Origin: Adhaeribacter rhizoryzae
GTDB lineage: Bacteria > Bacteroidota > Bacteroidia > Cytophagales > Hymenobacteraceae
Assembly: GCF_008629685.1 (NCBI RefSeq)
Contig: NZ_VWSF01000035.1
Coordinates: 1-44,152 of the forward strand
Length of the DNA stretch: 44,152 bases
Direction: 5' to 3'
A program made the translations under genes and the position numbers. Position 1 is the first letter of the stretch, and each line of letters begins with the position of its first letter. The notes beneath the pieces are model-generated. The model did no database searches, had not been told where the DNA came from, and saw only the letters and a list, made by a program, of their open reading frames with translations. Of the stretch, positions 7,941 through 39,229 are shown piece by piece.

Positions 7941-8077
7941 GTAATATTATGTAATAAACAATAAAGTAATATTCGTAATAAAATAATATTAGTAATATAA
8001 ATAGGTAAGTAATAAAGTAATATTATAAAAAAGCTACAATTGTTGTATGGGTTCTCTTTTCTTCCCTTTTGTAATAT
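7941..8077 (+). repeat. GTAATA repeat block 1
   Basis: Eight copies of GTAATA, all in the same orientation, start at 7941, 7951, 7966, 7975, 7992, 8009, 8017 and 8072. By hand estimate fewer than one is expected in DNA this AT-rich. The same hexamer is concentrated at the parA operon, at 10.2-10.8 kb and at 39.1 kb. Confidence 0.75.
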
Positions 8078-8141
8078 TCTTTTGTCGGCACCCGGCTTAG
8101 GGTATTTGGGATTGTTTGAATAAAAGGTTTAGCCATATAAG
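8042..8141 (+). repeat. 100-bp dispersed module, copy A
   Basis: It is about 75-80 percent identical by eye to 39282-39380. The best conserved core is TTCTCTTTTCTTCCCTTTTG, followed by GGCACCC and GCTTA. In both places it lies immediately after a GTAATA block. It does not encode a protein. Confidence 0.7.
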
Positions 8142-8236
8142 TAGAGGTATGAAAAATTGTTCTGCTAAAGCCTTGGTATTAGAAATCGAACTTAGAAATT
8201 GTAAGCAGGAAACTTATTACTGAATTCCTCTTTCTT

Positions 8237-8287
8237 AAAAGTAGGGTTTATCTGTAAATCGTGGCATTCGTACCATTCCCTACTTTT
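8237..8287. promoter_or_regulatory. 10-bp perfect stem upstream of a small gene
   Basis: AAAAGTAGGG (8237-8246) and CCCTACTTTT (8278-8287) are perfect inverted repeats with a 31-base loop, 50 bases before the 8337 start. It could be an RNA stem, an attenuator or an operator. Confidence 0.4.
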
Positions 8288-8336
8288 ATAATTAATACCA
8301 GTAGAACTATTCGAATGAGGGCCGGGTTCTAAACTT

Positions 8337-8627
8337 ATGGACAAGTTTGAAGCGTATGTTCTACCTTACTTAGTAAATAGCTATTTTAGGTATTTGGCTG
8401 ATGGGGAGGCCAAGTCGATGTCAGTAGAATATTTTCAGAAAAGCTTTACCAGCATAGCAGCTACGGAGCTGATCAATAGCGGGCAACGCTACTTCTATTA
8501 CCAGAATAAGGAAACCCTGGAATTAGTGATGCGCTTCCGAATTTCTCAGGCAGGAGGTTTGTCGGCTACGATGATGCGCTTTAGTGACTTTGAAAAACAA
8601 TTCTGCCATAAAACTGACAAGAAATAA
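8337..8627 (+). CDS. Hypothetical 96-residue protein
   Basis: A compact, soluble, charged protein without signal peptide or membrane segment. It opens MDKFEAYVLPYL and contains ELINSGQRYFYYQNKETLELVMRF. I do not recognise the family. It converges with the DUF3800-like gene, the two stops being only 8 bases apart. No clear ribosome binding site precedes the ATG, but Bacteroidota often lack one. Confidence 0.5.
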   Translation: MDKFEAYVLPYLVNSYFRYLADGEAKSMSVEYFQKSFTSIAATELINSGQRYFYYQNKETLELVMRFRISQAGGLSATMMRFSDFEKQFCHKTDKK

Positions 8628-8635
8628 CAACTTAA

Positions 8636-9829
8636 TTAAGACATCAGGTCCAAAGGAGGATGCGGCTGCTTGTCTTTATCCAAGGTTTTAATCAGCTCAT
8701 GCAGGATAGAATAGTTGGAGTTAGCTTGCAGCAGGTCTACTTGCTGTAAGCTGTTGACCAGGAGCTTGCGATTGCAAATATTCAGGCGGTTAATCATCGG
8801 CACAATGCTGTTGAGGTAACGGTTGTAAAAGCCGGCAATATCGGCTACCCTATCGGGTATTTTATAGCCAGACTTACCTTGTATACTCACTATCAGTACA
8901 CCATCATCTCGCAGGTGCTGAATACAAACCCGCAGTTGCTGCTCCGAGAAGTTGGGGAACACTTTTTTTAGTTTTTCAATTATTTCGTACTTCTCTACTA
9001 ATCTATCCGGTGCTGTGCGGAACATCAAGTATAAGTATTGTAATACCGCCTGCGCCTCTTCGGAAAGCCGGTGGTGTTGGGCTAAGGCTTCGCGGGCTGA
9101 GGCTGCTGCTATTTGGGCGATGAGCTCGTTTTTCTCCTGGTCATGTTCCGGAATAGATAGCAAGAAGTCGGTTTTCTCGAAAGGGAAAAAATCTACAAAA
9201 CTTCTATCGTGCAATAGGTCAAATAAGAAAGCGGCTTTTTCGTGGCTGTGGCTGGTGCAATAAATCTTACCTAAACAGCCGGCGATGAAATCCGCCAGTT
9301 GTACCAAGGGTTCTGCCAGTCTATCTTCTACCAACTGGTAAGTGCGGTCGGGGGTAAACAAATCCCGTTGAATGACTTTGGTCTGGATGTAATGCTGTAA
9401 GCTCCGCTGAAATCCGGGCCAGCCTACCTGGTCGGCATGGATGGAAAAGGAGGTAAAGTTTTGGGGGAATTGCTTGAGGAAGATGCGGTTGAAGTACTTG
9501 TAAAAAATCTCCTGTTGACTGAGCCCCTCTCCTACTACTTTGCTTTTATTGATTACTAGGCTAAGCACCAGAAAGTCCAGTTGCCGCAGCTCCTGCAAAA
9601 TAGCTACTTGCATTTGAAAGCCAAGCTCATCATCGGGTATCCGGCTGGACTGAATCGGATGTCCCTGGAAAAAGCGCTGGCTGATGTCCGCTTGCAGCTC
9701 TCGGGCTTGCATTAATTTCGCCTCTTCGATTAAGACGGCAGTCAGTACATAATGAGAGAAGCTGCCAGCTGGCTGCTGGTTTAAACTGGCATTGCCAAAC
9801 TCGGCCACAAAGAGGTGTAGGTGTTGCAT
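8636..9829 (-). CDS. DUF3800-like protein with C-terminal winged-helix region
   Basis: This is a 397-residue protein. The first 190 residues resemble DUF3800, a fold related to RNase H-like nucleases that is common in mobile elements. Visible are an opening strand LHLFVAEFGN, the acidic SIHADQVGW (about 119-127), and the typical closing QLADFIAG with D170. The usual opening acidic motif (YLDESG) is replaced by VAEFGN, so one acidic residue is shifted or lost. The second half (about 230-330) looks like a winged-helix part (KLKKVFPNFSEQQLRVCIQHL, then a DGVLIV wing). The role is unknown; nuclease or defence roles have been proposed for the family. Stands next to the replication and GTAATA regions. 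Confidence 0.6.
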   Translation of the reverse strand: MQHLHLFVAEFGNASLNQQPAGSFSHYVLTAVLIEEAKLMQARELQADISQRFFQGHPIQSSRIPDDELGFQMQVAILQELRQLDFLVLSLVINKSKVVGEGLSQQEIFYKYFNRIFLKQFPQNFTSFSIHADQVGWPGFQRSLQHYIQTKVIQRDLFTPDRTYQLVEDRLAEPLVQLADFIAGCLGKIYCTSHSHEKAAFLFDLLHDRSFVDFFPFEKTDFLLSIPEHDQEKNELIAQIAAASAREALAQHHRLSEEAQAVLQYLYLMFRTAPDRLVEKYEIIEKLKKVFPNFSEQQLRVCIQHLRDDGVLIVSIQGKSGYKIPDRVADIAGFYNRYLNSIVPMINRLNICNRKLLVNSLQQVDLLQANSNYSILHELIKTLDKDKQPHPPLDLMS

Positions 9830-10226
9830 AAACCTGGTACGTAAAGCAAAGCTATTATCTATCCAAGTTAAAAATTATTCTGGATGCCAGAAGACTTTCC
9901 GGTAGAAATTCTTTAGGGTGACGCTTTACTCTTTTATATAACGTATGCCTGATTGACAAGCTTACCCTTGCAGACTGCTTCCCTGGAAATTAGATTTGAA
10001 TCTTCTTTTCCCTTTTGTAATCTTTATCTAATATATCGAGAAACTGGTGACCAGGCTTATAAAGCAGTTATGGCGGTTGTTTGATTTAGTATATAAGTTA
10101 ATAATTAAATTTTAATTTATTATAAATCAGTGATTTATCAGAAGAACATTAGAATACTTTATTAATAGTAAAAAAAGGTTATTATACATATTTGTTATAA
10201 GTATTATTAAATTAATAAGTCCACAA

Positions 10227-10808
10227 TATTACTAATAATATAAGGTGTTAAGTAATATTAAATTACTGAAAGCGCAATAATATTTATGCATATATTAATT
10301 CGTTATACTATTACGCTATGCAATAGAATTCATAATTCTAGATTATTGGGAACATTACAAGCTTTTAATATAGTACTATCATAGGAGATTATTGCTTATA
10401 GTATAGTATTACTTAGCATATAATATTACTTTAATGCTGTATAATAATATATTACTTCATGAATTGTATATCTTCTATTATTTATATTCAATTATTGTTA
10501 AGAATAACCTATGTATTATAATCTAAAACATATTTATTACTAATAATATGTATGTATATTAAACTATTATCTTTATAAATAAATATTGCTAATATCTATT
10601 TATTACTAATCATATTGTATTACTTTAATTCGACGTAATATTTTAATCTTAGATAACTTTAGTAATCTTACTACTATATACTTCCATAACATTCCAACAT
10701 CATACATCTTTATTATTATAATTCTTTATTAGTAATATTGTTTTATTACTTATCATCTGATATTACCATCCGCATAAGTAATTAATATCAATCACCTTAT
10801 TTGTAATA
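10227..10808. repeat. GTAATA repeat block 2
   Basis: Fourteen hexamers were counted by eye: ten as TATTAC (10227, 10309, 10407, 10424, 10450, 10535, 10601, 10618, 10744, 10761) and four as GTAATA (10252, 10635, 10732, 10803). Roughly one is expected at this base composition. Several sit in longer TATTACTAAT contexts. It is the largest of the blocks and lies about 1.5 kb from the rep iterons. Confidence 0.7.
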
Positions 10809-10968
10809 TAATGTTACTATATTATCGATAAGATAAGATGATTCTGCTGACCGGTCTTTCCGCTACTAAGGTCCTGGTCTCAACTGGACCAGATGTTGGT
10901 ACCAAGTGACCCACCTGCTCATCAACTGCTTTTAATGGTTCTTCTTTGTTATCGGAAGTAAAGTGCCA

Positions 10969-11127
10969 ATGGCTACTATTTCATTTAACAAAGTGAGCAT
11001 ACGTGTCGTTTTCCAACCTGGTGCCTCCTTTTTACATCTATTCTCCGAAAGTGATTGTTCCGATAGTGGTGATTTAAAAGGAATGCTGTTTTCTCAGGCA
11101 ATAATCTACGGGTTACCGCTTGCCTGA
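10969..11127 (+). CDS. Possible 52-residue small protein
   Basis: An ATG at 10969 opens 52 codons ending TGA at 11125-11127. The protein begins MATISFNKVSIRVVFQPG and is mixed in composition. I know no relative. It sits in an otherwise non-coding stretch, 100 bases before the recombinase gene. It could be spurious. Confidence 0.25.
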   Translation: MATISFNKVSIRVVFQPGASFLHLFSESDCSDSGDLKGMLFSQAIIYGLPLA

Positions 11128-11144
11128 ATCCCTCAAAGCTGCTG

Positions 11145-11180
11145 TTTACATTACCACTACGAGCGTAGTGATAATGTAAA
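11145..11180. promoter_or_regulatory. 36-bp palindrome upstream of the recombinase gene
   Basis: TTTACATTACCACTACG (11145-11161) and CGTAGTGATAATGTAAA (11164-11180) pair with one mismatch in 17 across a 2-base centre. A dyad with a 2-bp centre is what a serine recombinase crossover site looks like, since the enzymes cut with a 2-base stagger. It could equally be an operator. The gene starts 49 bases downstream. Confidence 0.55.
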
Positions 11181-11229
11181 TAGAACGAATTTTCTTTATC
11201 TTTACCTGTAAAATTGGCAGACTTTACCC

Positions 11230-11910
11230 ATGCAGCAAACCAAGTACGTTACTTATATAAGAGTATCCACCAAAAAACAAGGAGAATCCGGATTGGGCTT
11301 GCAATCCCAGCAAACTTACCTGGACCATTTTTACAACGGGAAGAATATTATTGCCGAATTTACTGAAAATGTCAGCGGCAAGGATATTAGTAACCGGCCG
11401 AAGTTGCAGCAGGCCCTGGCCTTGTGCAAAAAAGAGAAGGCCGTGCTGGTGGTGGCCAAGATTGACCGGTTAAGCCGGAACACCGAGCAAGCACTTTGGA
11501 TTTATGCTGAATTGGATGGTAGGTTGGAGAGTTGTGATATTCCGAACCTGGATAAATTTACGCTTACATTGTTTATGGCCATCGCCGACCGGGAACGGGA
11601 GTTGATCAGCCTGAGAACCGCTAATGCTTTAGCGGAAAAAACCAAACGGCAGGGGGAGTGGCGGAAAGCAAGCACTCCCTTTACGGATAAGACCGCTAAT
11701 CACCTGGCCGTGGCGGTAAATAAAAATAAGGCTCGGGCAAATGAAAACAATAAGCGGGCAGCGGCACTTATCCAGTTGCACCGCCAACAAAATAAAGCCT
11801 GGAAAGAAATTGCTTTGGAACTAAACAATGCCGGATTTAAGGCCAGTAGGGGAGGGGCATTCCAGGCGGTGCAGGTGCAGCGAATCTACGAACGTTTAGC
11901 TAGTACTTAA
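11230..11910 (+). CDS. Serine recombinase (resolvase/invertase family)
   Basis: This is a 226-residue small serine recombinase. The N-terminal catalytic domain shows YIRVSTKKQ with Arg11 and the nucleophile Ser13, then AKIDRLSRN (76-84), and MAIADRERELISLRT on the long helix. A C-terminal DNA-binding part follows (about 165-226, LHRQQNKAWKEIALELNNAGFKASRGGAF), longer than in classic resolvases and resembling the Recombinase domain. On a plasmid the expected job is multimer resolution or DNA inversion. The palindrome 49 bases upstream is a candidate site. Confidence 0.88.
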   Translation: MQQTKYVTYIRVSTKKQGESGLGLQSQQTYLDHFYNGKNIIAEFTENVSGKDISNRPKLQQALALCKKEKAVLVVAKIDRLSRNTEQALWIYAELDGRLESCDIPNLDKFTLTLFMAIADRERELISLRTANALAEKTKRQGEWRKASTPFTDKTANHLAVAVNKNKARANENNKRAAALIQLHRQQNKAWKEIALELNNAGFKASRGGAFQAVQVQRIYERLAST

Positions 11911-12078
11911 GACCTGAAAGTCATTTGGTGTTTCCTCTGGGTGAAGAAAGCTGTGATAGGGTGAGTAAATAAAACATATATTTTAGCTGAGCACATCTAA
12001 CGCTTTGAGGCCCATTTTAAACATATGTAATTAAGATTTAAATATTTTAGAAGCCTTTCAGTAGATTTTATATTAAAA

Positions 12079-12262
12079 ACAGGTTTTATAAGTCAAGAAC
12101 CGAAAACACAGGTTTTATAAGCAACAAAAACAGATTTGATAAGCCTATAAACAGGTTTTATAAGTCAAACGACAAAAAACAGATTTGATAAGCCTATAAA
12201 CAGGTTTTATAAGCTTAAAAACAGATTTTATAAGCTAAACGACAAAAAACAGGTTTTATAAG
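12079..12262 (+). repeat. Iteron array downstream of rep (8 copies)
   Basis: Eight direct repeats of ACAGRTTTKATAAG start at 12079, 12108, 12130, 12151, 12179, 12200, 12221 and 12249. Start-to-start spacings are 29, 22, 21, 28, 21, 21 and 28, that is two or nearly three helical turns. Such arrays bind the Rep_3 initiator; together with the set upstream of rep this marks the replication origin region. The 170 bases before it (11911-12078) are AT-rich and show nothing else. Confidence 0.9.
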
Positions 12263-12263
12263 T

Positions 12264-13199
12264 CTATATGCCCAATGTTGTCCGAAAGTAACCCCCTGGG
12301 TTATTGATATCTTTCCGGCGGAGGGAAATATCGTAGAGGCATTTATTGGCTTTTTTCCGGAGCTCAGTACTATTAAGAATTTTGCTGATGAGGTTCGTGT
12401 CTAATATTCCAATATCCCTTAGACGTCCTTTCAACTGGGCTGCTTCCCGGTCCAATTCTTCAGACTCGAAAGGAATAACCGTTTGTACTTGGGAAACCAT
12501 TTTAATGGTGAAGGTAAGTTTGTGAATAGATTTACCTTTCTTTTCGGTTACCGCATAGGCCACCCTTAAATCCGATACTTCATTAATTTGCCGAATAGCC
12601 GGTTCTAACACATAATCTTTAAACTGTCCCCATTGCTTGTACTGTTCGGGCGCTTTACCAGACGGGTCTTTCAGGTTCAGCCGGTAGCGTAACTGCTCCA
12701 CTTCGAAAGTCATAGCACCTAAATCTTTCCACCTCGAAAACTGCACATAGAGCCATTTGGCGTACTTGGAAGTCATGGAAAGTACACAGAAGAGCTGGAA
12801 ACTGGTAAAATTGTTTTTTAGGTCTACCAGGTACGGCTTTAAATCTTCCGCAATAGAAAGTTGAATACGGCCTTGGCCTTTTAAATATTTGGCGCTGCTC
12901 ATCATGGCTACTTGCAGCAGTCCGTCTTCTTCTTCAATCTCGAACACCTTGCCAATCAGACCGGCAGTAGCTTCCCGCAACTGCTGGTAATTCCACTGCC
13001 GACCAGTTAACTCCTCGATTTCTTTAACGCTGATGGTATACTTGGTGTCCTTACTATCACCAGGCTTTAACCGGGAGAGCATCATAAAGTATATGTCCAG
13101 TTGCACCGCTGAAAGCTCGTGCCTGGCATTAGTTATTACATTATGATGCCGTACCTGGATTTTGGTTTCTTTAATTTCCAGCTGTTCCATGGGGCCCAA
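12264..13199 (-). CDS. Plasmid replication initiator, Rep_3 (RepB/RepE-like) family
   Basis: This 311-residue protein belongs to the Rep_3 superfamily of iteron-binding initiators, made of two winged-helix domains. The N-terminal domain is recognised by RHHNVITNARHELSAVQLDIYFMMLSRL and the YTISVKEIEELTG strand. The second carries SKYAKWLYVQFSRWKDLGAMTFEVEQLRYRL, the family's typical helix-strand pattern (FSKWLYRLLK...VELLRERL in relatives). It starts replication at the flanking iterons and probably represses its own promoter through the upstream array. The stop lies 2 bases from the last downstream iteron core. MEQLEIKE at codon 4 is an alternative start. Confidence 0.92.
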   Translation of the reverse strand: MGPMEQLEIKETKIQVRHHNVITNARHELSAVQLDIYFMMLSRLKPGDSKDTKYTISVKEIEELTGRQWNYQQLREATAGLIGKVFEIEEEDGLLQVAMMSSAKYLKGQGRIQLSIAEDLKPYLVDLKNNFTSFQLFCVLSMTSKYAKWLYVQFSRWKDLGAMTFEVEQLRYRLNLKDPSGKAPEQYKQWGQFKDYVLEPAIRQINEVSDLRVAYAVTEKKGKSIHKLTFTIKMVSQVQTVIPFESEELDREAAQLKGRLRDIGILDTNLISKILNSTELRKKANKCLYDISLRRKDINNPGGYFRTTLGI

Positions 13200-13253
13200 T
13201 TTATATAAAAGGCTTGAGAAAAAACAGAGACTTTAAGTATTTCTGTTTATTGA

Positions 13254-13353
13254 CTTATGAAATCTGTTTAATCAACTTATGAAATCTGTTTTTGTCGCTT
13301 ATCAAATCTGTTTATAAGCTTATGAAACCTGTTTATAGGCTTATTAAATCTGT
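13254..13353 (-). repeat. Iteron array upstream of rep (5 copies, inverted)
   Basis: Five copies of the same iteron in the opposite orientation (CTTATNAAAYCTGT on the + strand) start at 13254, 13276, 13298, 13319 and 13340, with 21-22 base spacing. They lie 55-154 bases upstream of the rep start, where the promoter should be, so they may serve both origin function and autorepression. Confidence 0.88.
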
Positions 13354-13552
13354 TTTGAAATTTACGTATCAGTTTAATAATCTGTGTCTTATGAGCCTTA
13401 CAAATAGATCAAATAATTCAAGTATTCACAAATTTGTGATCTGAATAAGGAATTTAGGGAGTTTTATTTGGCCACATACAATGAATCTGAGTGAACAAGT
13501 CAAAAAGGGAGCAAGTATCTGCTAAAGAGAGGAAACTGGGCCGCGCGAAAAA

Positions 13553-13566
13553 ACAGGTTTTATAAG
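13553..13566 (+). repeat. Solitary iteron
   Basis: ACAGGTTTTATAAG is a full match to the iteron core, in the orientation of the downstream array, 200 bases from the upstream array. It may be a handle for long-range Rep contacts, or a leftover. Confidence 0.7.
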
Positions 13567-13626
13567 CAGATAAGCTTCTCAATGGCTAAAAATATTAGTA
13601 AATCATAATGTGTCGGGCTAAGTTAA

Positions 13627-13755
13627 AGAAATAAAGTAAATGTTATTGCTTATTGTCAGGCCATTAAAAACGGCAACGTGGGAGCTATTCGGGAGCAGGA
13701 GCAACTGCGACGAGATTTAGAATCGAGCGATAGTAAAGAAGAGGACCAGTTATAA
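13627..13755 (+). pseudogene. Possible short coding remnant
   Basis: An open frame without an ATG reads AYCQAIKNGNVGAIREQEQL and continues with a strongly charged end to TAA at 13753-13755. Composition is protein-like, but start and family are missing. Probably a relic. Confidence 0.25.
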
Positions 13756-13907
13756 GTTTAATCTTTTCCTAATTACACCAAGTAAAAGGCTTGGCAAAAG
13801 CAGGAAATTAAGTCTCGACTTCCTCATGCACTTACTGTAGTTGATTAAAAATAAGCTGATGAAATCGTATTCTTGAGCCCTGCTTTTGCCTTCCAAAACG
13901 CAAAGAA

Positions 13908-14059
13908 CGACCGGAGTTGGAGAAGTTGTTAGGCCAACTACGGGCAGGTGATACAGTGGTGGTCTGCAAGCTGGTTAGGACGTTCGCTCTGAGACTTGGA
14001 TGACCTAGTAGCATAGTAGCAGAGTTTCAAAAGAGAGGCCAGGTGATTTATTCTAGGAA
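13908..14059 (+). pseudogene. Serine resolvase fragment
   Basis: The frame reads RPELEKLLGQLRAGDTVVVC, then KLVR, which matches the middle of a Tn3-type resolvase (the DTVVVxKLDRLxR segment). It is followed by a scrambled stretch with a TGA, then VAEFQKRGQVIY, the next conserved helix. Both the catalytic N-terminus and the DNA-binding C-terminus are absent. It is a decayed relic of an earlier transposon or resolution system. Confidence 0.65.
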
Positions 14060-14071
14060 GCTATCGAAAAG

Positions 14072-14113
14072 CCGAGTAGTCGAAAACACGTTATGAATGG
14101 CTTAGCTACTCGG
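14072..14113. terminator. 8-bp stem at the end of the alkC-like gene
   Basis: CCGAGTAG (14072-14079) pairs perfectly with CTACTCGG (14106-14113), whose arm overlaps the last codons of the gene on the minus strand. There is no T-run, so terminator function is uncertain. Confidence 0.35.
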
Positions 14114-15233: not shown

Positions 15234-15419
15234 GCGTGTCAGGAACTTATTAGGTGTGTTTAAACAAGGTTAGGCAATTTTTTTAATCGTTACTTATTGT
15301 TCCGTTTATAGAATAATTGGAAAGGATGAGGTAATTCCAGAATGGAGGACGATAAGTTCTAAAAGTGTTGTACGGGAGCTTCTCATTTTTATACGCTATA
15401 ATAAATTCCTGCTTAACAA

Positions 15420-15839
15420 TTAATATACTTCAACATTGTTCTTAGCAGGCACTTCTTTTCCTAAACTGTCTCGGGTATTTTTCTGAACCGCAATAGCAGC
15501 AAAAAGGCTTAGAATAAATGACATGGCATAGAACCCTTTTTCACTAAGGAGCATATCGGCATTCCAAAGCCCCACTACCAGCAACGCCACCGCCAGCATG
15601 GTAGAAAACCAACTGAGTCCATAATAGATATTGGTAACCGGAATACCATCCAGTTGGTCGCGCACACTTTTTTGGAGAGAGATAGCAGAGAATAAACCAT
15701 ACATGAGGATGGTAAAATAATAACCCTTTTCGTTGAGCAACATGTCGGCATTCCACAGCCCGATTATGTATGCTGTTACACCAGTAAGTAAAGTGCCCCA
15801 AGAGGCCGCCATAAATGCATTGGATGGTTTCTGATTCAT
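15420..15839 (-). CDS. YiaA/YiaB-type inner membrane protein
   Basis: This is a 139-residue membrane protein made of two copies of one unit. Each unit has two transmembrane helices around the signature [15 protein letters not shown] (seen at about residues 27-41 and again at about 87-101). This is the YiaAB two-helix domain. The function of the family is unknown. It lies 81 bases downstream of a Crp/Fnr-type regulator gene on the same strand, so the two may be cotranscribed or the regulator may act on it. Confidence 0.85.
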
Positions 15840-15920
15840 TTTTGTCTTTTGTTGAATGATGAATCAAAGGTATAGCAGACACTTATCCTTTCTTTTGACA
15901 ATAGTCAAAAAAAATGAATA

Positions 15921-16484: not shown

Positions 16485-16630
16485 TTTAAGGCTCTTGTAC
16501 TATAGATATGGAATTAGAATTTCTTTGTCAGAAAAAATGTTCTTAAAATAAAGCCAACGTACTGCTGCTATGGCCCGTTTAAATGTACTTTAATTTTGGT
16601 TGGGTGAAGTAATTCCTTTTTCTTTCTGTT

Positions 16631-16834: not shown

Positions 16835-17010
16835 TGGATCTTCAGCTTATCTTCTTGTTTCCCTAAGAAGAAACCTAAATTTAAAAAGCCTAAAACTCCT
16901 ACCCAAACAATAATGGAAATCCAGTAGGTCCTGTTGCAGCAGGACAGGATATATAGTCCACTATTTTCTTTTAGGGGGTGCCACCTTAATTTCCCCATTT
17001 TTCTTTTCAT
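16819..17010 (-). CDS. Small single-helix membrane ORF overlapping the RHH gene
   Basis: A 63-residue frame whose first 17 codons overlap the 3' end of the RHH gene. The hydrophobic part (about 28-50, YWISIIVWVGVLGFLNLGFF) is a plausible membrane segment. A later start would remove most of the overlap. Unrecognised family; may be the front half of the next ORF. Confidence 0.3.
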   Translation of the reverse strand: MKRKMGKLRWHPLKENSGLYILSCCNRTYWISIIVWVGVLGFLNLGFFLGKQEDKLKIQCNPL

Positions 17011-17251
17011 ACTCCTCTATGTACGCAGACAAGGCAGCGTTTATCTGATCTTTAAGCAAGGTTCTATCCCAATAAGCTATTGCGGATATTTTATCCAGGT
17101 AATCTTCCCGAATAACAAAGGTAGTGCGGCGCTCGGGAAATTTGGTGGGCTCTACTGCTTCATTTGCTTCCTGCACTTCTTCCTGCTCCGCATTTTCTGT
17201 TGTACTCTGCAGCAATTTGCCTAATCCACCTGAGAAATTTTTCTTTGCCAT
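16961..17251 (-). CDS. Ribbon-helix-helix partition partner (ParB-like)
   Basis: This is a 96-residue protein. A flexible acidic N-terminal arm (about 1-36) precedes a ribbon-helix-helix-like core (RRTTFVIREDYLDKISAIAY, then LLKDQINAALSAYIEEYEKK, about 41-85) and a basic tail. Small RHH centromere-binding proteins encoded just after parA are typical of type Ib plasmid partition systems. The gene follows parA by 35 bases. A GTAATA hexamer (as TATTAC at 17260-17265) lies 9 bases upstream of its start. Confidence 0.7.
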   Translation of the reverse strand: MAKKNFSGGLGKLLQSTTENAEQEEVQEANEAVEPTKFPERRTTFVIREDYLDKISAIAYWDRTLLKDQINAALSAYIEEYEKKNGEIKVAPPKRK

Positions 17252-17286
17252 GTTACTGATATTACTATATGTTTTTTATTATTATG

Positions 17287-18057: not shown

Positions 18058-18180
18058 ATGTTACTTTATAACTTTGTTACTAGTAATCTCCAAAATAATG
18101 GAATGTTAACCAATAAAAAAAGTTACTTATTAATATCTTGTTAAAAGTAATAAATATGCTTGATATTACTATGTTATTAC
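18058..18180. promoter_or_regulatory. parA upstream region with palindrome and GTAATA sites
   Basis: TTACTAGTAA (18077-18086) is a perfect 10-bp palindrome 20 bases before the parA start. GTAATA is at 18147, and TATTAC at 18164 and 18175. These match the hexamer of the dispersed repeat blocks and are the natural place for operator or centromere binding by the RHH partner. Confidence 0.55.
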
Positions 18181-18344
18181 ATAGTGAATATTTTTTTATT
18201 ACTAAATCATTGGTAAAATAGATTGCTTTGGTCACAAATAAAACCGATAAATCAAGAATAGGTAAGTTGATGAGACAGCTGCATGCCTGAAGTGACAAAC
18301 AATGTTTTTACAAAAGGGAAGAAAAAGCTTGTTTTTGTTGATAA

Positions 18345-18394: not shown

Positions 18395-18436
18395 ATAGGC
18401 AATTAATCAAACAAGAACACTTTAAATCTTAACCTT

Positions 18437-19372: not shown

Positions 19373-19381
19373 ATGTTAAAG

Positions 19382-19409: not shown

Positions 19410-19421
19410 ATCCATAAGATT

Positions 19422-19610: not shown

Positions 19611-19613
19611 GTA

Positions 19614-28998: not shown

Positions 28999-29003
28999 GG
29001 GTC

Positions 29004-30610: not shown

Positions 30611-30653
30611 TGACAGGTTGAGAGAGAATTTATAAAAACTCAGTGAGGGAATT

Positions 30654-32785: not shown

Positions 32786-32786
32786 T

Positions 32787-33578
32787 ATGAAAAATATCAT
32801 GACGCTGCTGGCCCTGCTGGCTATAGATTTTGCTGCTTTCAGTCAGTCCCAACCGCCCCAAATAATTTATGTGAATGAATGTATTTCTACCCACATTGTC
32901 AGCCCGGGCCCCATCAAGTACGTCGATATTTCTACCGACGACGTGGCCGGCGATATTCCGGTGGATAATATTTTTCGCATCAAGCCCAAGAAAACCAATC
33001 CCCGGCTGGGTGTTGTCACCATCGTAGGGGAACGGTACCTGGTCCAGTATAAACTTACTTATGCGCCTATCGCCATGGCCAGCACCGAGGTGAGAATTGA
33101 TCCTACCCAGGTCGATGAATATTTAAATCCGGAAGTATCCATGAGTGTGCAGGAGATGAAAAGCTTCTCGCTCCAGGCCATGCAGCACAAGGCGCAGCGG
33201 CCTGCCGTTACCACCCGAAAAGATAAGGTGGTGGCCGCCGTGAATAACATTTATACCATGGGGGATTACTTCTTTATTGACCTTTCCCTGAAAAATAAAA
33301 CCAATATCAGCTATGATATAGACCAAATCCGGTTTAAAATCCAGGATAAAAAACAGGTGAAATCAACCAATTTCCAGCAGTTAGAAGTCGAGCCGGTGCA
33401 CCGGCTCTTTAACCAGGATAGCTTTAAGCGCCGGTACCGCAACGTGTTTGTGTTCAAGAAATTCAGCTTCCCGGAGGAGAAGGTGTTTAACATTGAGATA
33501 GCCGAAAAACAGGTTTCCGGCCGTGCTATTTCCCTGAAAGTCGATTATTCGGATGTATTAAAGGCAGATACTTTGTAG
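32787..33578 (+). CDS. traN: TraN-like conjugation protein (VirB9-like, DUF4138)
   Basis: A 263-residue protein. ATG at 32787 is chosen because it begins the signal peptide (MKNIMTLLALLAIDFAAFSQ) directly; an upstream in-frame ATG at 32760 lies inside traM. The mature part is beta-rich, with the DUF4138 features STHIVSPGPIKYVDIS, VVTIVGERYLVQYKLTY and YTMGDYFFIDLSLKNKTNISYDIDQ. VirB9-like proteins form the outer-membrane-proximal ring with TraM. There is one base between the traM stop and this start. Confidence 0.88.
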   Translation: MKNIMTLLALLAIDFAAFSQSQPPQIIYVNECISTHIVSPGPIKYVDISTDDVAGDIPVDNIFRIKPKKTNPRLGVVTIVGERYLVQYKLTYAPIAMASTEVRIDPTQVDEYLNPEVSMSVQEMKSFSLQAMQHKAQRPAVTTRKDKVVAAVNNIYTMGDYFFIDLSLKNKTNISYDIDQIRFKIQDKKQVKSTNFQQLEVEPVHRLFNQDSFKRRYRNVFVFKKFSFPEEKVFNIEIAEKQVSGRAISLKVDYSDVLKADTL

Positions 33579-33584
33579 GCAGCG

Positions 33585-35579
33585 ATGGAAGAATCAAGCG
33601 AACTAAAAAAGCTCCATTCCTTTCTGCAGGGCTTTGTCTACTTTGTGCTGTTTTTAGAGTTTTTGATTTTCCTATTTGCGGAGGCCGGGTTTACCGCCAG
33701 CATCCAGCCGGTATTATCCAAGCTGCAACGCATCGGCATCTATCAGGATATCTATTACGCCAAGGCTTTTACCTTCCTGCTGATTTTAATGGTGGCCATC
33801 GGTACCAAGGCCCGGAAGAACTTAAACTTTAACCCGGTTAAGCACATCTTTTTACCGCTGTTGATGGGCTTGGTTTTTTTCTTTGGCTCGGTTTATTTCT
33901 ACTTCCACCAAACAACTAAAATTTTAGCCTTCGAAGTTACCTGGTATGATGCGGCTTACATGGTCCTTTCCCTGGTGGGCGCCGTGATGATAAACATGGC
34001 GCTGGATAATATTTCCAAGCACATCCAGAGTGGCTTGATGAAAGATAGGTTCAACATAGAAAATGAATCCTTCGCGCAAAGCCAACAGCTGATGGAAACA
34101 CCCTTCAGCATTAACATCCCCATGCTCTATTATCACCAGCGGAAAATTAATAAAGGCTATTTGAATATTGTTAACCCTTTCCGGGCTACGCTGCTCATTG
34201 GTACCCCTGGTTCCGGTAAGTCTTACTCCATTGTCAACCCTTTTATTAAACAGATGCTGGCCAAAGGGTTTGCCATGGCTATCTATGATTTTAAGTTTCC
34301 GGACCTGGGCAAAATGGCTTATTACCATTACCTGCTCAACAAGAAAAAGGGCCCGCTGAAGGATTTTAAATTCCACGTGATAAATTTTAACAGCGTGGCG
34401 CACAGCCGCCGTTTTAACCCGCTAAAACCCAAGTACCTGCCTACGCTGGCTGATGCCACCGAAACGGCCGAGGCCTTATTGCAAAGCCTGATGAAGAGCG
34501 ATAAAGAATCCGGGGTTGCGCAGTTTTTTACTCAGTCCGCGGTAAACTTTCTGGCCAGCTGCATCTTTTTTCTGAGCCGGCACCAGGGCGGCAAGTATTC
34601 TACTTTCCCGCACGTACTGGCTTTTATAAACCTGGGCTATGATGAAATATTTGAAATGCTGTTTTCAGAACCGCAATTAATCAGTTTACTATCTCCTTTC
34701 CGGAGTGCCTACCAACACAAAGCTTTTGACCAACTGGAGGGCCAGATAGGTACCCTGAAAATTAACGTGGGCCGGTTAGCCACCAGGGAAACGTTCTGGG
34801 TGCTTTCCGGGGATGATTTTGAGCTTAAAATTACAGATCCTAATAATCCGGCGGTGGTGGTAATCGCCAATGACCCGGCCACGCAGAGCATTAACAACGC
34901 CTGCAACGCGCTTATTCTGAATCGCATGACCAAGCTTATCAATTCTAAAGGGAACTTGCCTTGTGGCCTGATTATAGACGAATCTCCAACCTTGTACGTG
35001 CACAAGGTAGAGAACCTGATTGCCACGGCCAGAAGCAACAAAATAGCCGTTTTACTGGGCTTACAGGAATTGCCCCAGTTGAAGCAGCAATACGGTCAGG
35101 AAACGGCTGATTCCATTTGCTCGGTGGCCGCTAATGTTATTTCCGGATCCGTCAGAAACAAGGATACGCTGGATTGGTTGGAAAAGCTTTTTGGTAAGGT
35201 AAGGCAGCAGCGGGAAGGAATCAGCATTGACCGCAGCAGCACCTCGATGTCGATGAATGAGGAAATGGGCGACTTAATTCCAGCTTCTAAAATAGCCACG
35301 TTGGCTGCCGGGGAGGTGGTGGCACAGGTGGCTTTTGATAACACCAAGTACGACGGGCAGCACGTAAACAGCACCTATAACTGTAAAATCGACCTGGATG
35401 TAAAATTCATATCACAGGAGGAAGAATTATATGTTAATATGCCAATATTTTATAATTTTGGTGATGATGGGGAAAGAAATTATATCCTAGATCAGAACTT
35501 TGCCAGAATCAACCGGGAAATAGAATCCTTAAAAGACCACTTCTACACGCATGAACTTAACCATAACCGATCTGGGTGA
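33585..35579 (+). CDS. VirD4/TraG-type coupling protein (T4CP)
   Basis: This 664-residue membrane ATPase brings the relaxase-DNA complex to the channel. The N-terminal quarter has about four transmembrane helices (about 12-36, 60-72, 88-108, 121-140). Walker A is GTPGSGKS (206-213), Walker B is in NLPCGLIIDESPTLYV, followed by ATARSNKIAVLLGLQELPQLK, the T4CP all-alpha/sensor region. In Bacteroidetes elements this protein is often named MobC. The last 60 codons are clearly more AT-rich than the rest. It overlaps the next gene by 29 bases. Confidence 0.9.
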   Translation: MEESSELKKLHSFLQGFVYFVLFLEFLIFLFAEAGFTASIQPVLSKLQRIGIYQDIYYAKAFTFLLILMVAIGTKARKNLNFNPVKHIFLPLLMGLVFFFGSVYFYFHQTTKILAFEVTWYDAAYMVLSLVGAVMINMALDNISKHIQSGLMKDRFNIENESFAQSQQLMETPFSINIPMLYYHQRKINKGYLNIVNPFRATLLIGTPGSGKSYSIVNPFIKQMLAKGFAMAIYDFKFPDLGKMAYYHYLLNKKKGPLKDFKFHVINFNSVAHSRRFNPLKPKYLPTLADATETAEALLQSLMKSDKESGVAQFFTQSAVNFLASCIFFLSRHQGGKYSTFPHVLAFINLGYDEIFEMLFSEPQLISLLSPFRSAYQHKAFDQLEGQIGTLKINVGRLATRETFWVLSGDDFELKITDPNNPAVVVIANDPATQSINNACNALILNRMTKLINSKGNLPCGLIIDESPTLYVHKVENLIATARSNKIAVLLGLQELPQLKQQYGQETADSICSVAANVISGSVRNKDTLDWLEKLFGKVRQQREGISIDRSSTSMSMNEEMGDLIPASKIATLAAGEVVAQVAFDNTKYDGQHVNSTYNCKIDLDVKFISQEEELYVNMPIFYNFGDDGERNYILDQNFARINREIESLKDHFYTHELNHNRSG

Positions 35580-35910
35580 ACGCCTGCAAATGCTTAGGAA
35601 GGCGATGGAACTTTCTCAAAAAGAACTGGCAGCGACGTTGGAGGTACAGCAAAACCAGATATCACGCTTAGAAAATGGAATAGGAGGAACCCTGGAGATG
35701 CTCCTGCAGCTCGTTAATTATTACGGAGAACACTTTCACCTACATTCCATGTTTTCAGAGGAATTTGAAGTTATAAAAAAATCTGAAAATTTATCCCAAC
35801 CGCTAGTTTACAACAGTATTGCGGTAGAGCGGTTGAAACTTTTAAAAACAGAGTTCTCGGACCAGATAACCGATATTATCAGCATTATCGAAAAGGAAGG
35901 GAGTTGTTAG
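35551..35910 (+). CDS. XRE-family helix-turn-helix regulator
   Basis: A 119-residue protein with an N-terminal XRE/Cro-type HTH (about 8-62: LGERLQMLRKAMELSQKELA, then VQQNQISRLENG) and a helical C-terminal part probably for dimerisation. It starts inside the end of the coupling-protein gene and is thus translated with the transfer operon, so it could give feedback control on transfer genes, for instance through the GTATATAC-type palindromes (inference). It converges with the M23 peptidase gene, overlapping it by 4 bases. Confidence 0.85.
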   Translation: MNLTITDLGERLQMLRKAMELSQKELAATLEVQQNQISRLENGIGGTLEMLLQLVNYYGEHFHLHSMFSEEFEVIKKSENLSQPLVYNSIAVERLKLLKTEFSDQITDIISIIEKEGSC

Positions 35911-36545
35911 TTGCCGCTGTTTTTTTTTCGGGCTTGTAATTTCAGGGTCCGGTAAATTATATCTAAAAAAGGGACGGGGTCTATGTTCTGGCCTCGGTGC
36001 CTGATGGCAAAGTGCAAATGGTCTCCGGTGCTTCTGCCGGTGCTACCAGTTATACCGATGACGATGCCGGCATTTAATTTCATTTTTTCCCGGACCATCA
36101 CCAAAGACAGATGGCCGTAGGTGGTTTGAAAATCACCGTGCTTCACCTCAATATAGTTTCCCAAGCCTCGGGAATAAGCCACTTTATTTACTTCCCCTGG
36201 CATAATGACCATTACCGAATCAGCATACCCCCTGAAGTCGATGCCATCATGAAACTTTTCTTTGCCCGTTAAAGGGTCTACCCGATACCCAAAATGACTA
36301 TTAATAACCGGCCTGGAAAGCGGCATGGAAACCCCGGTGCCAGTGGGGCCTGCTACCGGTTTAAATCTGGTGGAGTCAATCGCTTGTAAAGGCGATGTTA
36401 TCGCCACTATCCCTGTCCTGGCTGTAGCCGCATCCACTTGTACCTGCGGCAGATTTTTTACCTGCTTAATCGTGTTGAACTGGCCGTAGACAGCTGTGTA
36501 AAAAGCCACTACAGGAACAATAAATAGTGTTTTTAGCGTTTTCAT
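35907..36545 (-). CDS. M23-family peptidoglycan endopeptidase
   Basis: A 212-residue exported protein with a signal peptide (about 1-21) and a LytM/M23 domain (about 80-200). The metal ligands are H99 and D103 in KFHDGIDF and H178 in DHLHF, with the catalytic His145 in TYGHLS. It cuts peptide cross-links in the cell wall. Wall hydrolases in conjugative elements locally open peptidoglycan for the transfer channel, which fits its position beside the tra genes, though it is on the opposite strand and so separately expressed. Confidence 0.9.
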   Translation of the reverse strand: MKTLKTLFIVPVVAFYTAVYGQFNTIKQVKNLPQVQVDAATARTGIVAITSPLQAIDSTRFKPVAGPTGTGVSMPLSRPVINSHFGYRVDPLTGKEKFHDGIDFRGYADSVMVIMPGEVNKVAYSRGLGNYIEVKHGDFQTTYGHLSLVMVREKMKLNAGIVIGITGSTGRSTGDHLHFAIRHRGQNIDPVPFLDIIYRTLKLQARKKNSGN

Positions 36546-36685
36546 ATATTGTATATAATGTTTGCAATTATACTTATATGGTATATAAAAAAGAAATAAT
36601 TTTGGTTGCTGGTCAGTAAATCCTCTTATAATATGTATATTTACTCAAATATAATTCTTAAAAATACATTTAAATAATATCTGCT
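36546..36685. promoter_or_regulatory. Divergent promoter region with a GTATATA site
   Basis: This very AT-rich gap separates two divergent genes. ATTGTATATAAT (36548-36559) is a near palindrome two bases from the peptidase start, and a second GGTATATAAAA follows at about 36580. They resemble the sites at 21136 and 24117. Confidence 0.45.
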
Positions 36686-37336
36686 ATGAGTTTCCAAATT
36701 AAAGATTTGCCGTACGCTCAATTTGAGCAGTTGGGAATGAGTAGAAGGGATGTAATTACCATGCAACCTCAGGACTTGGCCGATTTGCTTAACGGGCACC
36801 GGACGGGTTTAATCTCTTTGAAAATTCAATTGGGAGAAGGGATGAAGCCGATGCAGACCCAGGCTAAGCTGAGCCTCACCCGCAACCCGGATAATACCTT
36901 GTCATTGGGTGTTCATCCCATTCTGGCTAAACCAATAAATACCATTGAGGCCTCGCCTGAGCAATGGGCTAAAATGCTGACCGGGGAGCCGATTGTAAAA
37001 GCGTCTAAGTCCTATAACGGCACCATAGAACCCCATCTGCACCAGTTGGATAAAGACACAAAAGAAATTCTAAGTGCCCGGGTAGGGGCCATTCAGATAC
37101 CGCATTCTATCCAGGACACCGTATTAACGCCGGCGCAGAAAGAGCAATTAAGAAACGGGCTGGCCATAGAAATTGAAGGCAAGGCCACCAAAGAAGCTAT
37201 TGTTGTCCGGCTCGATTTAAATGAGAGCAGAGGTTACATCATAACGTCCGTTGAACAAGCCAGGGAGCAAGGCCGCAATTCCAATTTAGATGTTACAAAA
37301 GGGAAAGAAAATGTAAGCCGGGGTATTAAAATGTAA
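36686..37336 (+). CDS. DUF4099/DUF3945-like mobile-element protein
   Basis: A 216-residue soluble protein. The lead LPYAQFEQLGMSRRDVITMQPQDLADLLNG and the later IEASPEQWAKMLTGEPIVK are typical of DUF4099/DUF3945 proteins carried by Bacteroidetes conjugative elements, often next to a TOPRIM/primase gene. The gene ends 5 bases before such a gene here, so the two probably work together in DNA processing after transfer. The biochemical role is unknown. Confidence 0.65.
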   Translation: MSFQIKDLPYAQFEQLGMSRRDVITMQPQDLADLLNGHRTGLISLKIQLGEGMKPMQTQAKLSLTRNPDNTLSLGVHPILAKPINTIEASPEQWAKMLTGEPIVKASKSYNGTIEPHLHQLDKDTKEILSARVGAIQIPHSIQDTVLTPAQKEQLRNGLAIEIEGKATKEAIVVRLDLNESRGYIITSVEQAREQGRNSNLDVTKGKENVSRGIKM

Positions 37337-37341
37337 AAGTC

Positions 37342-38448
37342 ATGACTTTTCAGGACTACCGAGAGAACGTTCCCATAACCGCAGTGGCGGAATCTTTGGG
37401 CTACCGGGTTGATTTGAAAAAGGGACGCGTAACCCTGGAATTTAAGCACCCGGATGGCGATACCGTTCTGATTGACCCAGCCAGAAAGCTTTATTATAAT
37501 CGGAATGGTACCCAGGACCGGGGGGATATAATAGAGTTCGTGAAAAATAGGCTCGATAAGTTTAACATTAGCTATGAACACCCCATTAACGGCGTAAATA
37601 AGGTACTCCAAACCTATGTAAACGAGTCTCAGTGCATTCCTATAAAGTACACCCCCCCTGCGCCGATAGCATTTGATACAAGCCGCTTCGAAGCTCCTAA
37701 AGCTTCTGTGTTTAAATTGCACTATCTCATCCAGGAAAGAGGGTTGGATATGGATACGATAAAGCGGTTTTCTCCCTTTATTCACTTGGTTAAGGATACG
37801 CAAGAAACCACCGGCAGACCCTACGAGAACATAGGGTTCCCTCTGACCAAACCAGGCAGTGAAATAATAGTGGGATGGGATTTACGGAATTATGGTTTTA
37901 AAGGAGTAGCCGCGGGCAGTGACCGGCAGAACGGAATGTGGATAGCTGATTTTGTAGGCAGCCCGGCGCGCACCAGGAACGTTCTATTTGGGGAGAATCC
38001 CATTGACCTAATGAGCTTCTACCAGCTATATAAACATAAGCTTGATTTAGATAACGCCGCTTTTATTTCTTTTGGCGGCGGTATAGCCAAGGGCCAGTTA
38101 CAGGGAGCTGTAAGGTATTGGGCTGATGTAAAAAAACATACGGCCTTTGATAATGACTATCAAGGCAAAATGTACGATATCGCTTTGGCCATCCACGTAA
38201 CCGGCAAGGATGTTCCTTTACCGCAGAAATTGGCGGATAGCCTTTTGTTTAAAGTGGAAGGCAAAAGCTTTGAAATTCCGGTAGATAAGATAAGCCTGGC
38301 TAGGTTTGAAAAGGCTTCCGGCATCCGGTCAAACGTGACTGTGCATAAAGCTACGGGTGGGAACAGGAATGGAATACCATTTAAGGATTTTAATGATATT
38401 ATTCATCCAAAAAATGCCTCTCAAATAAACAAAATAAAGCTACGATAG
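37342..38448 (+). CDS. TOPRIM/primase-like protein (TraP or DUF3991-like)
   Basis: A 368-residue protein. The N-terminal region (about 1-75) has the form of a CHC2-type primase lead without the zinc cysteines (VAESLGYRVDLKKGRVTLEF, then RGDIIEFVK). A DUF3991-like part follows, and then a TOPRIM-like core (FGENPIDLMSFYQLYKHKLD, with the acidic E and a TAFDNDYQGKMYD motif for DxD). Such proteins are thought to prime the complementary strand of transferred DNA in the recipient. It follows the DUF4099-like gene by 5 bases. Confidence 0.72.
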   Translation: MTFQDYRENVPITAVAESLGYRVDLKKGRVTLEFKHPDGDTVLIDPARKLYYNRNGTQDRGDIIEFVKNRLDKFNISYEHPINGVNKVLQTYVNESQCIPIKYTPPAPIAFDTSRFEAPKASVFKLHYLIQERGLDMDTIKRFSPFIHLVKDTQETTGRPYENIGFPLTKPGSEIIVGWDLRNYGFKGVAAGSDRQNGMWIADFVGSPARTRNVLFGENPIDLMSFYQLYKHKLDLDNAAFISFGGGIAKGQLQGAVRYWADVKKHTAFDNDYQGKMYDIALAIHVTGKDVPLPQKLADSLLFKVEGKSFEIPVDKISLARFEKASGIRSNVTVHKATGGNRNGIPFKDFNDIIHPKNASQINKIKLR

Positions 38449-38472
38449 TAAATATCCTTAAAGCCTACTTCC

Positions 38473-38910
38473 ATGAAAAGTTTATCGTACTTAAGTAGCA
38501 TTTTAGCACTGTTTCTTTTGCTAGCTAGTTGTGGTAAGGATGGTTCTGACCCAACACCCAATACAGCCTCTTTCCGGGTAGACTTCAATCAAAGCGGAGA
38601 TTATGAGAAATTCAATAAAATTATTTCTATCAGCGGAGGAGAGTTTAAATATAGGGGTACCAACGACATAGTGCCGGCAGCTTTAATCGGCGATGATTTA
38701 AAGGCTGCTAGTTTCTCTATAGAAGCGGACAATGTAGAAGAATTAGAAATTTCGACAATAACCGGGTTTTCTCCGGTTCAGTCTGGTCCTGCTACTATGA
38801 CCATGAAGTTTACCGTCTATAAGAATGGGGTATTGCTGGATGAGAAAAGCTTTACTTATACAGAAGTAACAAGAGACAAAAGCGAGGATCTTAATTATAA
38901 GGCTAATTGA
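38473..38910 (+). CDS. Small lipoprotein
   Basis: A 145-residue protein with a lipoprotein signal (LLLASC, acceptor Cys20) followed by a flexible GKDGSDPTPN linker and a beta-sandwich-like domain (FRVDFNQSGDYEKF, MTMKFTVYKNGVLLDEKSFTY). I recognise no family. It follows the TOPRIM-like gene by 24 bases on the same strand. Small lipoproteins in this position may act in entry exclusion or surface contact, but that is a guess. Confidence 0.6.
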   Translation: MKSLSYLSSILALFLLLASCGKDGSDPTPNTASFRVDFNQSGDYEKFNKIISISGGEFKYRGTNDIVPAALIGDDLKAASFSIEADNVEELEISTITGFSPVQSGPATMTMKFTVYKNGVLLDEKSFTYTEVTRDKSEDLNYKAN

Positions 38911-38988
38911 AAGGGCTAGATTCCGTTGAGATTATTGTTAAAAGTTAGCTAAAAATAACTGACAGCAATTGGTTAGCAGGCTGTCTAA

Positions 38989-39053
38989 CTGGTATCAGCG
39001 TCCGGTCCGATGGATACCAGAAGCCAGGTACCGGAAATGCGGGTAAGTTCCGG
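38989..39053. other. GC-rich segment with two perfect stems
   Basis: CTGGTATC (38989-38996) pairs with GATACCAG (39013-39020), and CCGGAA (39031-39036) with TTCCGG (39048-39053). The segment stands out in an AT-rich, non-coding 500-base stretch (38911-39417) and precedes a GTAATA block, as does a CCGG-rich patch at 7.9 kb. It could be part of a partition/origin module or a small RNA. Confidence 0.45.
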
Positions 39054-39131
39054 ACCAGCGAACGACCGTTGGCAAGGCGCCCAGCCGGGGAATACGTTGC
39101 CCACCGCTAGTATTTTCTTTTTAGCTGATGA

Positions 39132-39229
39132 GTAATATTGTATTACTATGTTTTTATAGGGCTCAGTAATATTATCTTATTTGTGTGCCGAATTATTATA
39201 TGATAAGTAATAAAGAATCATAAGTAATA
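39132..39229. repeat. GTAATA repeat block 3
   Basis: GTAATA starts at 39132, 39166, 39207 and 39224, and TATTAC at 39141. The order of GC-rich patch, GTAATA block and pyrimidine-rich module is the same as at 7.9-8.1 kb. Confidence 0.65.

Follow-up and report, generated by a model that had tools for sequence, protein, structure and literature searches.

Partition systems with RHH proteins

Two described plasmid partition systems stand closest to the one considered here, a parA operon with a ribbon-helix-helix (RHH) protein gene on a 44,152-nucleotide contig of Adhaeribacter rhizoryzae (NZ_VWSF01000035.1 of assembly GCF_008629685.1; contig C29 of a 53-contig genome of 6.5 Mb), which is called the window below. 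The TP228 system parFGH comprises the ATPase ParF, the RHH protein ParG and the centromere parH, in which boxes with AT-rich spacers are read by ParG (PMC7308502). In pSM19035, six parS sites overlap the copS, delta and omega promoters, and a minimum of four contiguous, ungapped repeats is required (PMC9499535). According to a review, the centromere of type Ib systems lies upstream of the operon, and the pSM19035 arrangement is unique (PMC5016525). RHH-type centromere proteins are described as non-spreading, and the fit of few-dimer systems to the transport model is called unclear (PMC9499535). The window holds, besides its par operon, three remote blocks crowded with the hexamer GTAATA or its complement TATTAC, and the likeliest explanation of the whole set is that they are scattered arrays bound by a partition protein resembling ParG. 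The elements concerned are the following.

16961 to 17251, minus strand: gene of a 96-amino-acid ParG-like RHH protein, presumed centromere-binding protein and repressor (26-member profile, best solved match ParG of TP228)
17253 to 17266, no strand: putative operator in the parA-RHH gap, two TTACT 9 bp apart, starting 1 bp from the RHH start codon
17287 to 18057, minus strand: parA, 256 amino acids, P-loop residues 10–16, without an N-terminal DNA-binding extension (Pfam AAA_31, 8.7e-59)
18061 to 18203, no strand: putative parA operator array, 7 AGTAA/TTACT half-sites, 4 GTAATA words (AGTAAC the top 6-mer)
10100 to 10830, no strand: block 2, an island of 81% AT with 16 AGTAA half-sites (14 GTAATA words), proposed main centromere (shuffles, conserved place)
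7941 to 8076, plus strand: block 1, 8 same-strand GTAATA (4 as AGTAA), proposed accessory centromere-like array (shuffles)
39131 to 39236, no strand: block 3, 6 AGTAA half-sites (5 GTAATA words), proposed accessory centromere-like array (shuffles, spacings)

TP228 is the closest system in protein and in box style: the RHH protein of the window is related to ParG, and its GTAA boxes with AT-rich spacers are similar in kind to those of parH. However, parH is one continuous site (PMC5016525), whereas arrays that are candidate centromeres stand here at four separate loci besides the gap between parA and the RHH gene. The delta-omega-parS system of pSM19035 is the closest in having multiple parS, that is, several separate arrays, and its RHH protein binds direct or inverted repeats and doubles as a repressor (PMC9499535, PMC5016525). 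Its repeats are contiguous 7-bp WATCACW units, whereas the window has gapped (A)GTAA units on 8.5–9 bp, and direct pairs give an R of 0.08 for a 7-bp period. While the parS sites of pSM19035 overlap promoters of its own copS, delta and omega genes, the largest array here lies between two divergent genes without a known link to partition.

A third comparison is that with the sites of helix-turn-helix (HTH) type ParB proteins. Among these are the OB sites, which are those of KorB of RP4. Like the arrays of the window, OB sites and chromosomal parS are scattered over the replicon (PMC5016525). HTH-type ParB proteins spread from their sites (PMC9499535), whereas the protein here looks RHH-type.

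The earlier note, which drew attention to the hexamer, called unlinked multiple sites unusual for a type Ib-like system. Scattered type Ib sites are indeed uncommon, but they have a precedent, since pSM19035 carries six parS (PMC9499535). No description of a Bacteroidota (A)GTAA system was found in the open-access literature, as covered by the titles and abstract openings of the best-ranked matches, with the subscription literature mostly outside.

The par operon and its RHH protein

The operon has sequence features of a type Ib system. ParA is short and without an N-terminal DNA-binding domain, and a small gene lies 35 bp downstream; the small partner protein combines a C-terminal RHH fold with a flexible N terminus, as judged by the ParG profile match and the model described below; and an array of short direct and inverted repeats is placed at the operon, with seven AGTAA upstream of parA and two in the gap. 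ParA is 95% identical over 246 residues in plasmids of A. swui and A. radiodurans.

The 26-member profile of the RHH protein, compared with solved structures, gives ParG of TP228 as the top match (1p94, E 1.3e-5). The Pfam ParG family is weakly matched (best E 0.0018) by 8 of the 26 profile members, and the window protein, scanned against Pfam as a single sequence, has no ParG match. Its AlphaFold2 model has a mean pLDDT (predicted local distance difference test score) of 88–95 per ten-residue block over residues 41–90, with confident helices at 49–62 and 66–85 and low confidence at residues 20–32; the strand is absent in the monomer model. The top Foldseek matches of the model are mostly RHH proteins (StnY, CopG, Arc), none at E<=0.001. 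The profile comparison indicates that the protein is a distant relative of ParG.

Clusters of GTAATA in the window

Exact counting gives eight GTAATA in block 1 (7941–8076), all on the plus strand, 14 hexamers in block 2 (10227–10808; four GTAATA and ten TATTAC), five in block 3 (39132–39229; four in one orientation and one in the other), three upstream of parA (18147–18180) and a single copy at 17260, before the RHH gene. These are the counts of the earlier note, to which a further copy at 18197, the fourth upstream of parA, is added.

Both local and whole-window enrichment was tested by dinucleotide shuffles. The full window contains 60 hexamers against a mean of 29.9 (sd 5.3, maximum 47; 200 shuffles). 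None of 2000 local shuffles is as high as block 1 (8 against 0.64) or block 2 (14 against 2.6), which bears out the excess claimed for these two, and the same holds for block 3 (5 against 0.41), which is reached in 3 of 2000 shuffles when wider flanks are used. The region upstream of parA (4 against 0.67) is equalled in 6 of 2000. The hexamer at 17260, taken alone, is not significant (522 of 2000 shuffles as high); it overlaps one of two TTACT sites, at 17253 and 17262, 9 bp apart.

Host DNA, which the earlier note had suggested as a second yardstick, gives the same picture. A 432-kb part of the genome that excludes the window gives 5724 windows of 150 bp; their maximum is three GTAATA (nine windows), and among those with at least 74% AT (n=187) it is two, as it also is per 150 bp in the 124-kb, probably circular contig C11. 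Close same-strand GTAATA triplets occur 11 times in the entire 6.5-Mb genome, and 7 of these lie inside the 44-kb window; the reversed control pattern yields five same-strand triplets genome-wide. When every 6-mer of the window is ranked by local over-clustering, GTAATA at 7941 comes second, behind a Rep iteron word. The clustering is confirmed and lies well above chance.

The word is short and AT-rich, the sequence changes fast, and isolated windows dense in AGTAAH are met elsewhere, all of which would suit drift of AT-rich intergenic DNA or expansion of a simple repeat. Such an origin by chance is hardly credible, however, in view of the shuffles for blocks 1–3, of the lattice described next and of the recurrence in homologous systems, and AT content as the sole cause is rejected by the shuffles together with the control DNA of the same genome.

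The half-site and its spacing

When all 5- and 6-mers are ranked, with none picked in advance and expected values taken from a first-order Markov simulation, AGTAA/TTACT is the top 5-mer of the four orthologous islands described below (63 against 18.5 expected), AGTAAC the top 6-mer of four parA promoters (11 against 0.5) and GTAATA that of blocks 1 and 3 together (13 against 0.8). The Adhaeribacter half-site can be written A-GTAA-T/C-A. By this comparison the hexamer is the visible portion of an (A)GTAA half-site, and GTAATA, which the earlier note took as the unit, is replaced by this half-site on a lattice of 8.5–9 bp.

Spacings were tested against random placement in 1000 trials, which makes p 0.001 the floor, over regions chosen for site density and not for spacing, the orthologous ones among them being non-independent. 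In the window, direct AGTAA spacings have a best period of 8.5 bp (23 pairs, corrected p 0.003), and so do GTAA spacings (51 pairs, p 0.010). Ten Adhaeribacter regions give 8.3–8.4 bp (AGTAA, 81 pairs, p 0.001), whereas the best period is 8.9–9.0 bp in G193, a genome of another Hymenobacteraceae genus, and in a set of Flavobacterium, Tenacibaculum and other relatives (p 0.001 each). Direct spacings in G193 and these relatives are predominantly 9, 18, 27 and 36, and inverted pairs are in register with them (AGTAA..TTACT at 12, 21 and 30, TTACT..AGTAA at 6, 15 and 24). Those of Adhaeribacter are 8/9, 17, 25/26, 33/34, 42/43 and 51, and block 3 has 9, 17, 26, 34, 41 and 58. A 10.5-bp period gives no pooled signal in the lattice test. 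RHH dimers lined up side by side on the DNA would produce a lattice of 8.5 bp, or of 9 bp in the relatives.

Homologous systems

In several families and in another phylum, homologous systems again have the half-site at the parA promoter or gap. ParA-RHH pairs of Flavobacterium, Tenacibaculum, Fibrella and a metagenome-assembled genome have AGTAA both in the parA promoter and between parA and the RHH gene; gap sites are also present in A. swui and A. radiodurans, with the 9-bp pair, of these two, in A. radiodurans only. Among 84 ParA loci, with expectations from first-order Markov simulation (likewise for the AGTAAH peaks and the later systems), GTAA is in significant excess in promoter and gap at 7 of the 10 loci whose RHH protein is of the AYW[D/E]R type, compared with 3 of the remaining 74 (Fisher p 2.9e-6). 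The ten were recognised by visual inspection of their sequences once the table existed (L022 by the sequence following parA), and for many of the 74 the script caught no downstream open reading frame (ORF). Two pairs among the ten are near-identical (L047/L162 and L024/L159), and when they are collapsed 6 of 8 loci are significant. In L160, L019, L022, L162 and L047 the AGTAAH count is highest, or ties for highest, at the parA promoter or gap.

A prediction set beforehand came true in three uninspected promoters, those of a Lawsonia plasmid (L237), an 8.1-kb Flavobacterium contig (L238) and a contig of G614 (L240). In all three the AGTAAH count reaches its maximum, alone or shared, at the parA promoter or gap, and of their 18 direct spacings, from pairs that are non-independent, 14 are multiples of 9. 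L243 is the F. frigidarium contig already in the set; a second copy in that genome (L244), whose ParA match is broken or partial, was left out of the held-out count, and all six of its gap spacings are multiples of 9. An RHH match in another Adhaeribacter (L014) has no adjoining ParA match.

The Lawsonia pair occupies positions 1502–2921 of plasmid pl03 of Lawsonia intracellularis, a Desulfovibrionales plasmid, and its ParA is 61.5% identical. The presence of a parA-RHH pair of the same type there suggests transfer between phyla.

The RHH protein of G193 is 48% identical over the matched part. On its contig C59, clusters stand at 128.3, 149.9 (gap), 150.6 (parA start), 153.2, 153.5, 155.4, 158.0 and 158.5 kb, of which seven lie entirely or largely outside ORFs, and nearly identical composite sites of ~30 bp are found at 128.3 and 155.4 kb. 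Six clusters of at least four sites fall within 31 kb of C59, against one in control contigs.

These comparisons leave the RHH protein well supported as the predicted reader of AGTAA. The proposal of the earlier note that it reads the dispersed blocks is thereby likely, given the recurrence, the link to the RHH subfamily, the lattice and the place of block 2 kept in all four plasmids compared below, with the word GTAATA itself given up.

The block 2 island

Block 2 is bordered by a DUF3800 gene on one side and a serine recombinase gene on the other, and fills the space between them. An AGTAA island is found in the same space in the plasmids of A. swui (141 kb) and A. radiodurans (136 kb) and in contig C2 of G003 (210 kb), hence in 4 of 4 plasmids, with 14–18 sites in each. 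Of the 18 island sites of the window, only 4, 6 and 6 have an aligned counterpart in the three relatives, while the closest pair, A. swui and G003, has 15 of 17 sites in common. Compared with the window, the DUF3800-side flank is 71–74% identical and the stretch from recombinase to rep 82.7–83.7%, whereas identity within the island, taken over windows of 100 columns, varies between 16 and 68%. The sites thus turn over at constant number, inside noncoding DNA that is generally diverging.

The array has 16 half-sites over ~650 bp and ends ~400 bp from the start codon of the recombinase, ~1.2 kb from the Rep iterons at 12064 and ~7 kb from the parA start. The Rep_3-type replication gene is flanked on both sides by AAACAGGTTTTATAAGC-like iterons (12064–12271 and 13276–13575), mostly opposite in orientation between the two sides. 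These iterons, which flank rep and are of a different motif, were considered as the source of the word and rejected. A near-perfect palindrome at 11145–11180 lies before the serine recombinase gene, and its core, ATTACCNCTACGNGCGTAGTGATAATG, is present in the three relatives; it is probably a res-type site or an operator.

Since block 2 adjoins the recombinase gene, with that palindrome in front of it in all four plasmids, and the blocks are 75–81% AT, the reader of the arrays could be sought in the serine recombinase, or in a host nucleoid protein acting on AT-rich foreign DNA, for which the parA promoter would be one more AT-rich target. Such a reader is quite improbable. The AT-rich windows of the genome have no hexamer cluster (maximum 2, n=187), the half-site tracks the RHH subfamily, the recombinase palindrome differs in sequence, and the annotation of the Tenacibaculum (L159) and Flavobacterium (L160) plasmids, which is known to be incomplete, has tyrosine-type or unnamed integrases and no serine recombinase.

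The dispersed arrays might also be operators only, with the remote blocks regulating their neighbours (the DUF3800 gene, the recombinase and small ORFs at 8337 and 39418) and the array of the par operon alone serving as centromere, which is the usual arrangement in type Ib systems. Every block precedes one or more ORFs, repression is a second activity of RHH partition proteins (PMC9499535, PMC5016525), and L160, L019 and L022 have clear peaks at the parA promoter and gap alone. Block 2 fits poorly with this proposal, being long, well away from the recombinase start and constant in site number over four plasmids, and a purely regulatory role is unlikely. Operator and centromere roles are not exclusive, because operators and parS are the same DNA in pSM19035 (PMC9499535).

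Blocks 1 and 3

The arrays beyond block 2 stand ~10 and ~21 kb from the parA promoter array, and they share a flank, 86% identical over 65 nt and 76.6% over 107 nt.

8035 to 8099, plus strand: flank of block 1, duplicated next to block 3 (86% identity over 65 nt)
39277 to 39341, plus strand: flank of block 3, duplicate of the block 1 flank

The genome has only two matches to 8030–8105, namely 8030–8105 itself and the block 3 flank. Because of this common flank, one of the two blocks is probably a copy of the other.

Some further clusters and repeats are found in related genomes. A small one lies at 5853–5909 in A. radiodurans. Perfect 7-bp tandem repeats of GTAATAA are located at 1501–1534 of L156 (A. 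swui, G007 C2), with a relaxase gene on one side and a second ParA-like gene on the other; another Adhaeribacter genome (G001) has this tandem too, at 66372–66419 of contig C37.

The pyrimidine box and the contig ends

A pyrimidine box, TTCTTCCCTTTTGTAA, with 0–3 mismatches, accompanies all 10 arrays of the four Adhaeribacter plasmids, and is also found beside the largest G193 array. Its copies in the window are these.

8059 to 8074, plus strand: pyrimidine box by block 1
39301 to 39316, plus strand: pyrimidine box by block 3
10005 to 10020, plus strand: pyrimidine box by block 2, 2 mismatches (2–3 in the other three plasmids)
18308 to 18323, minus strand: pyrimidine box upstream of the parA operator array (0 mismatches in the other three plasmids)

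A stricter form of the box has no occurrence in 300 kb of other DNA of the genome, and 0 of 12 scanned loci of distant relatives have the box. Contig C11, in which no ParA homolog of this type turned up, has it at five places outside ORFs of at least 80 amino acids. With C11 and the 12 distant loci in mind, the box is rejected as RHH-specific; it is perhaps a plasmid promoter or a host-factor site.

The ends of the window (1–123 and 44030–44152) form a perfect inverted repeat of 123 nt, which also starts contig C13 and has copies of 88–89% identity elsewhere. Contig C11 of the same genome (G000; L123–L129), 124 kb long, has the same 123 nt at its start and at its end and carries heavy-metal genes like those of the A. 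swui plasmid; it is probably a circular plasmid. Since its ends overlap by just these 123 nt, the repeat probably reflects the assembler overlap length at a dispersed repeat. The replicon to which the window belongs is not closed, and is probably larger than the window.

Proposed function of the arrays

The arrays are best explained as binding sites of the plasmid's own ParG-like RHH protein (16961–17251). Those in the parA promoter and in the parA-RHH gap would be operators for self-repression. Block 2, by its length, place and conservation, would be the main centromere, coated by the RHH protein and moved by nucleoid-bound ParA. Blocks 1 and 3 may act as further centromere-like sites, giving several partition complexes without ParB-like spreading, a role for which the case is weaker than for block 2. 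This division into operators, a main centromere and additional centromere-like sites is likely to be correct; binding, repression, segregation and the unequal roles of the blocks are what we infer from enrichment, lattice, kept place and the co-occurrence of half-site and RHH subfamily. The several centromere-like sites proposed by the earlier note survive as dispersed arrays, but probably not as equals, block 2 being conserved and blocks 1 and 3 found in this plasmid only among the four.

A number of observations speak against such a function. The Adhaeribacter arrays are gapped, whereas contiguous repeats are required in pSM19035 (PMC9499535). Enrichment varies with the word chosen: counted as AGTAAH, block 1 has four sites per 150 bp, a number that 10 of 5724 control windows reach or exceed, and forms no peak; counted as bare GTAA, blocks 2 and 3 have 7 and 6 per 150 bp, while control windows reach 9 (block 1, with 10, is above all of them). 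Isolated windows with five AGTAAH and without a known array are found at 45251 of C11, 40101 of C22, 5851 and 12401 of A. radiodurans, and 15501 and 196351 of G003. The four Adhaeribacter parA promoters alone fit ~10.9 bp better than 8.5, and block 1 alone fits 13.0 as well as 8.4, so that the 8.5-bp lattice depends on the pooled data and block 3. Blocks 1 and 3 have no comparable GTAATA cluster in the three relatives, where the largest others hold 3–4 copies. The noncoding stretch from block 2 to the recombinase also diverges (49–67% identity to the window), and site turnover is therefore not special to the array.

The homologous systems contribute further points of this kind. Three of the ten loci of the AYW[D/E]R type show no significant excess (L018, p 0.106; L159, 0.25; L024, 0.43). 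The top AGTAAH peak of L018 is elsewhere, L159, L024 and L163 have peaks tied with other windows, and the sole peak of L020 lies behind the RHH gene. As to the prediction, the AGTAAH excess of the Lawsonia plasmid is not significant (p 0.18), L238 shares its genome with L018, and the two genomes originally named, G445 and G498, gave no test: G445 is the Fibrella contig already in the set, and G498 has an orphan chromosomal RHH copy with no ParA in 120 kb and no adjoining array. Clusters of at least three sites are no less frequent in 70 kb from other contigs of G193 (4, of which two are wholly and one partly noncoding) than on C59 (11 in 276 kb), and the support from G193 is for this reason moderate, leaning on the 9-bp lattice.

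A wider proposal is more tentative, and on balance somewhat doubtful. It envisages a family of ParG-like systems, on Bacteroidota plasmids and one Desulfovibrionales plasmid, that would read (A)GTAA on a lattice of 8.5–9 bp. In Hymenobacteraceae, several centromeres would be spread over ~30 kb, among them a fast-evolving AT-rich island that keeps its place and number of sites, much like a satellite centromere. The shift from 9 bp, with a TRATF-type RHH strand, to ~8.5 bp, with the RRTT type of Adhaeribacter, would reflect a changed packing of RHH dimers.

The idea of dispersed arrays is testable, because the arrays, the lattice and an orthologous series of islands with 14–18 sites each are now defined. 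If it is true, scattered arrays would be a natural answer to the few-dimer limit, with additional landing places replacing spreading, and Bacteroidota plasmids would have a readable centromere code.

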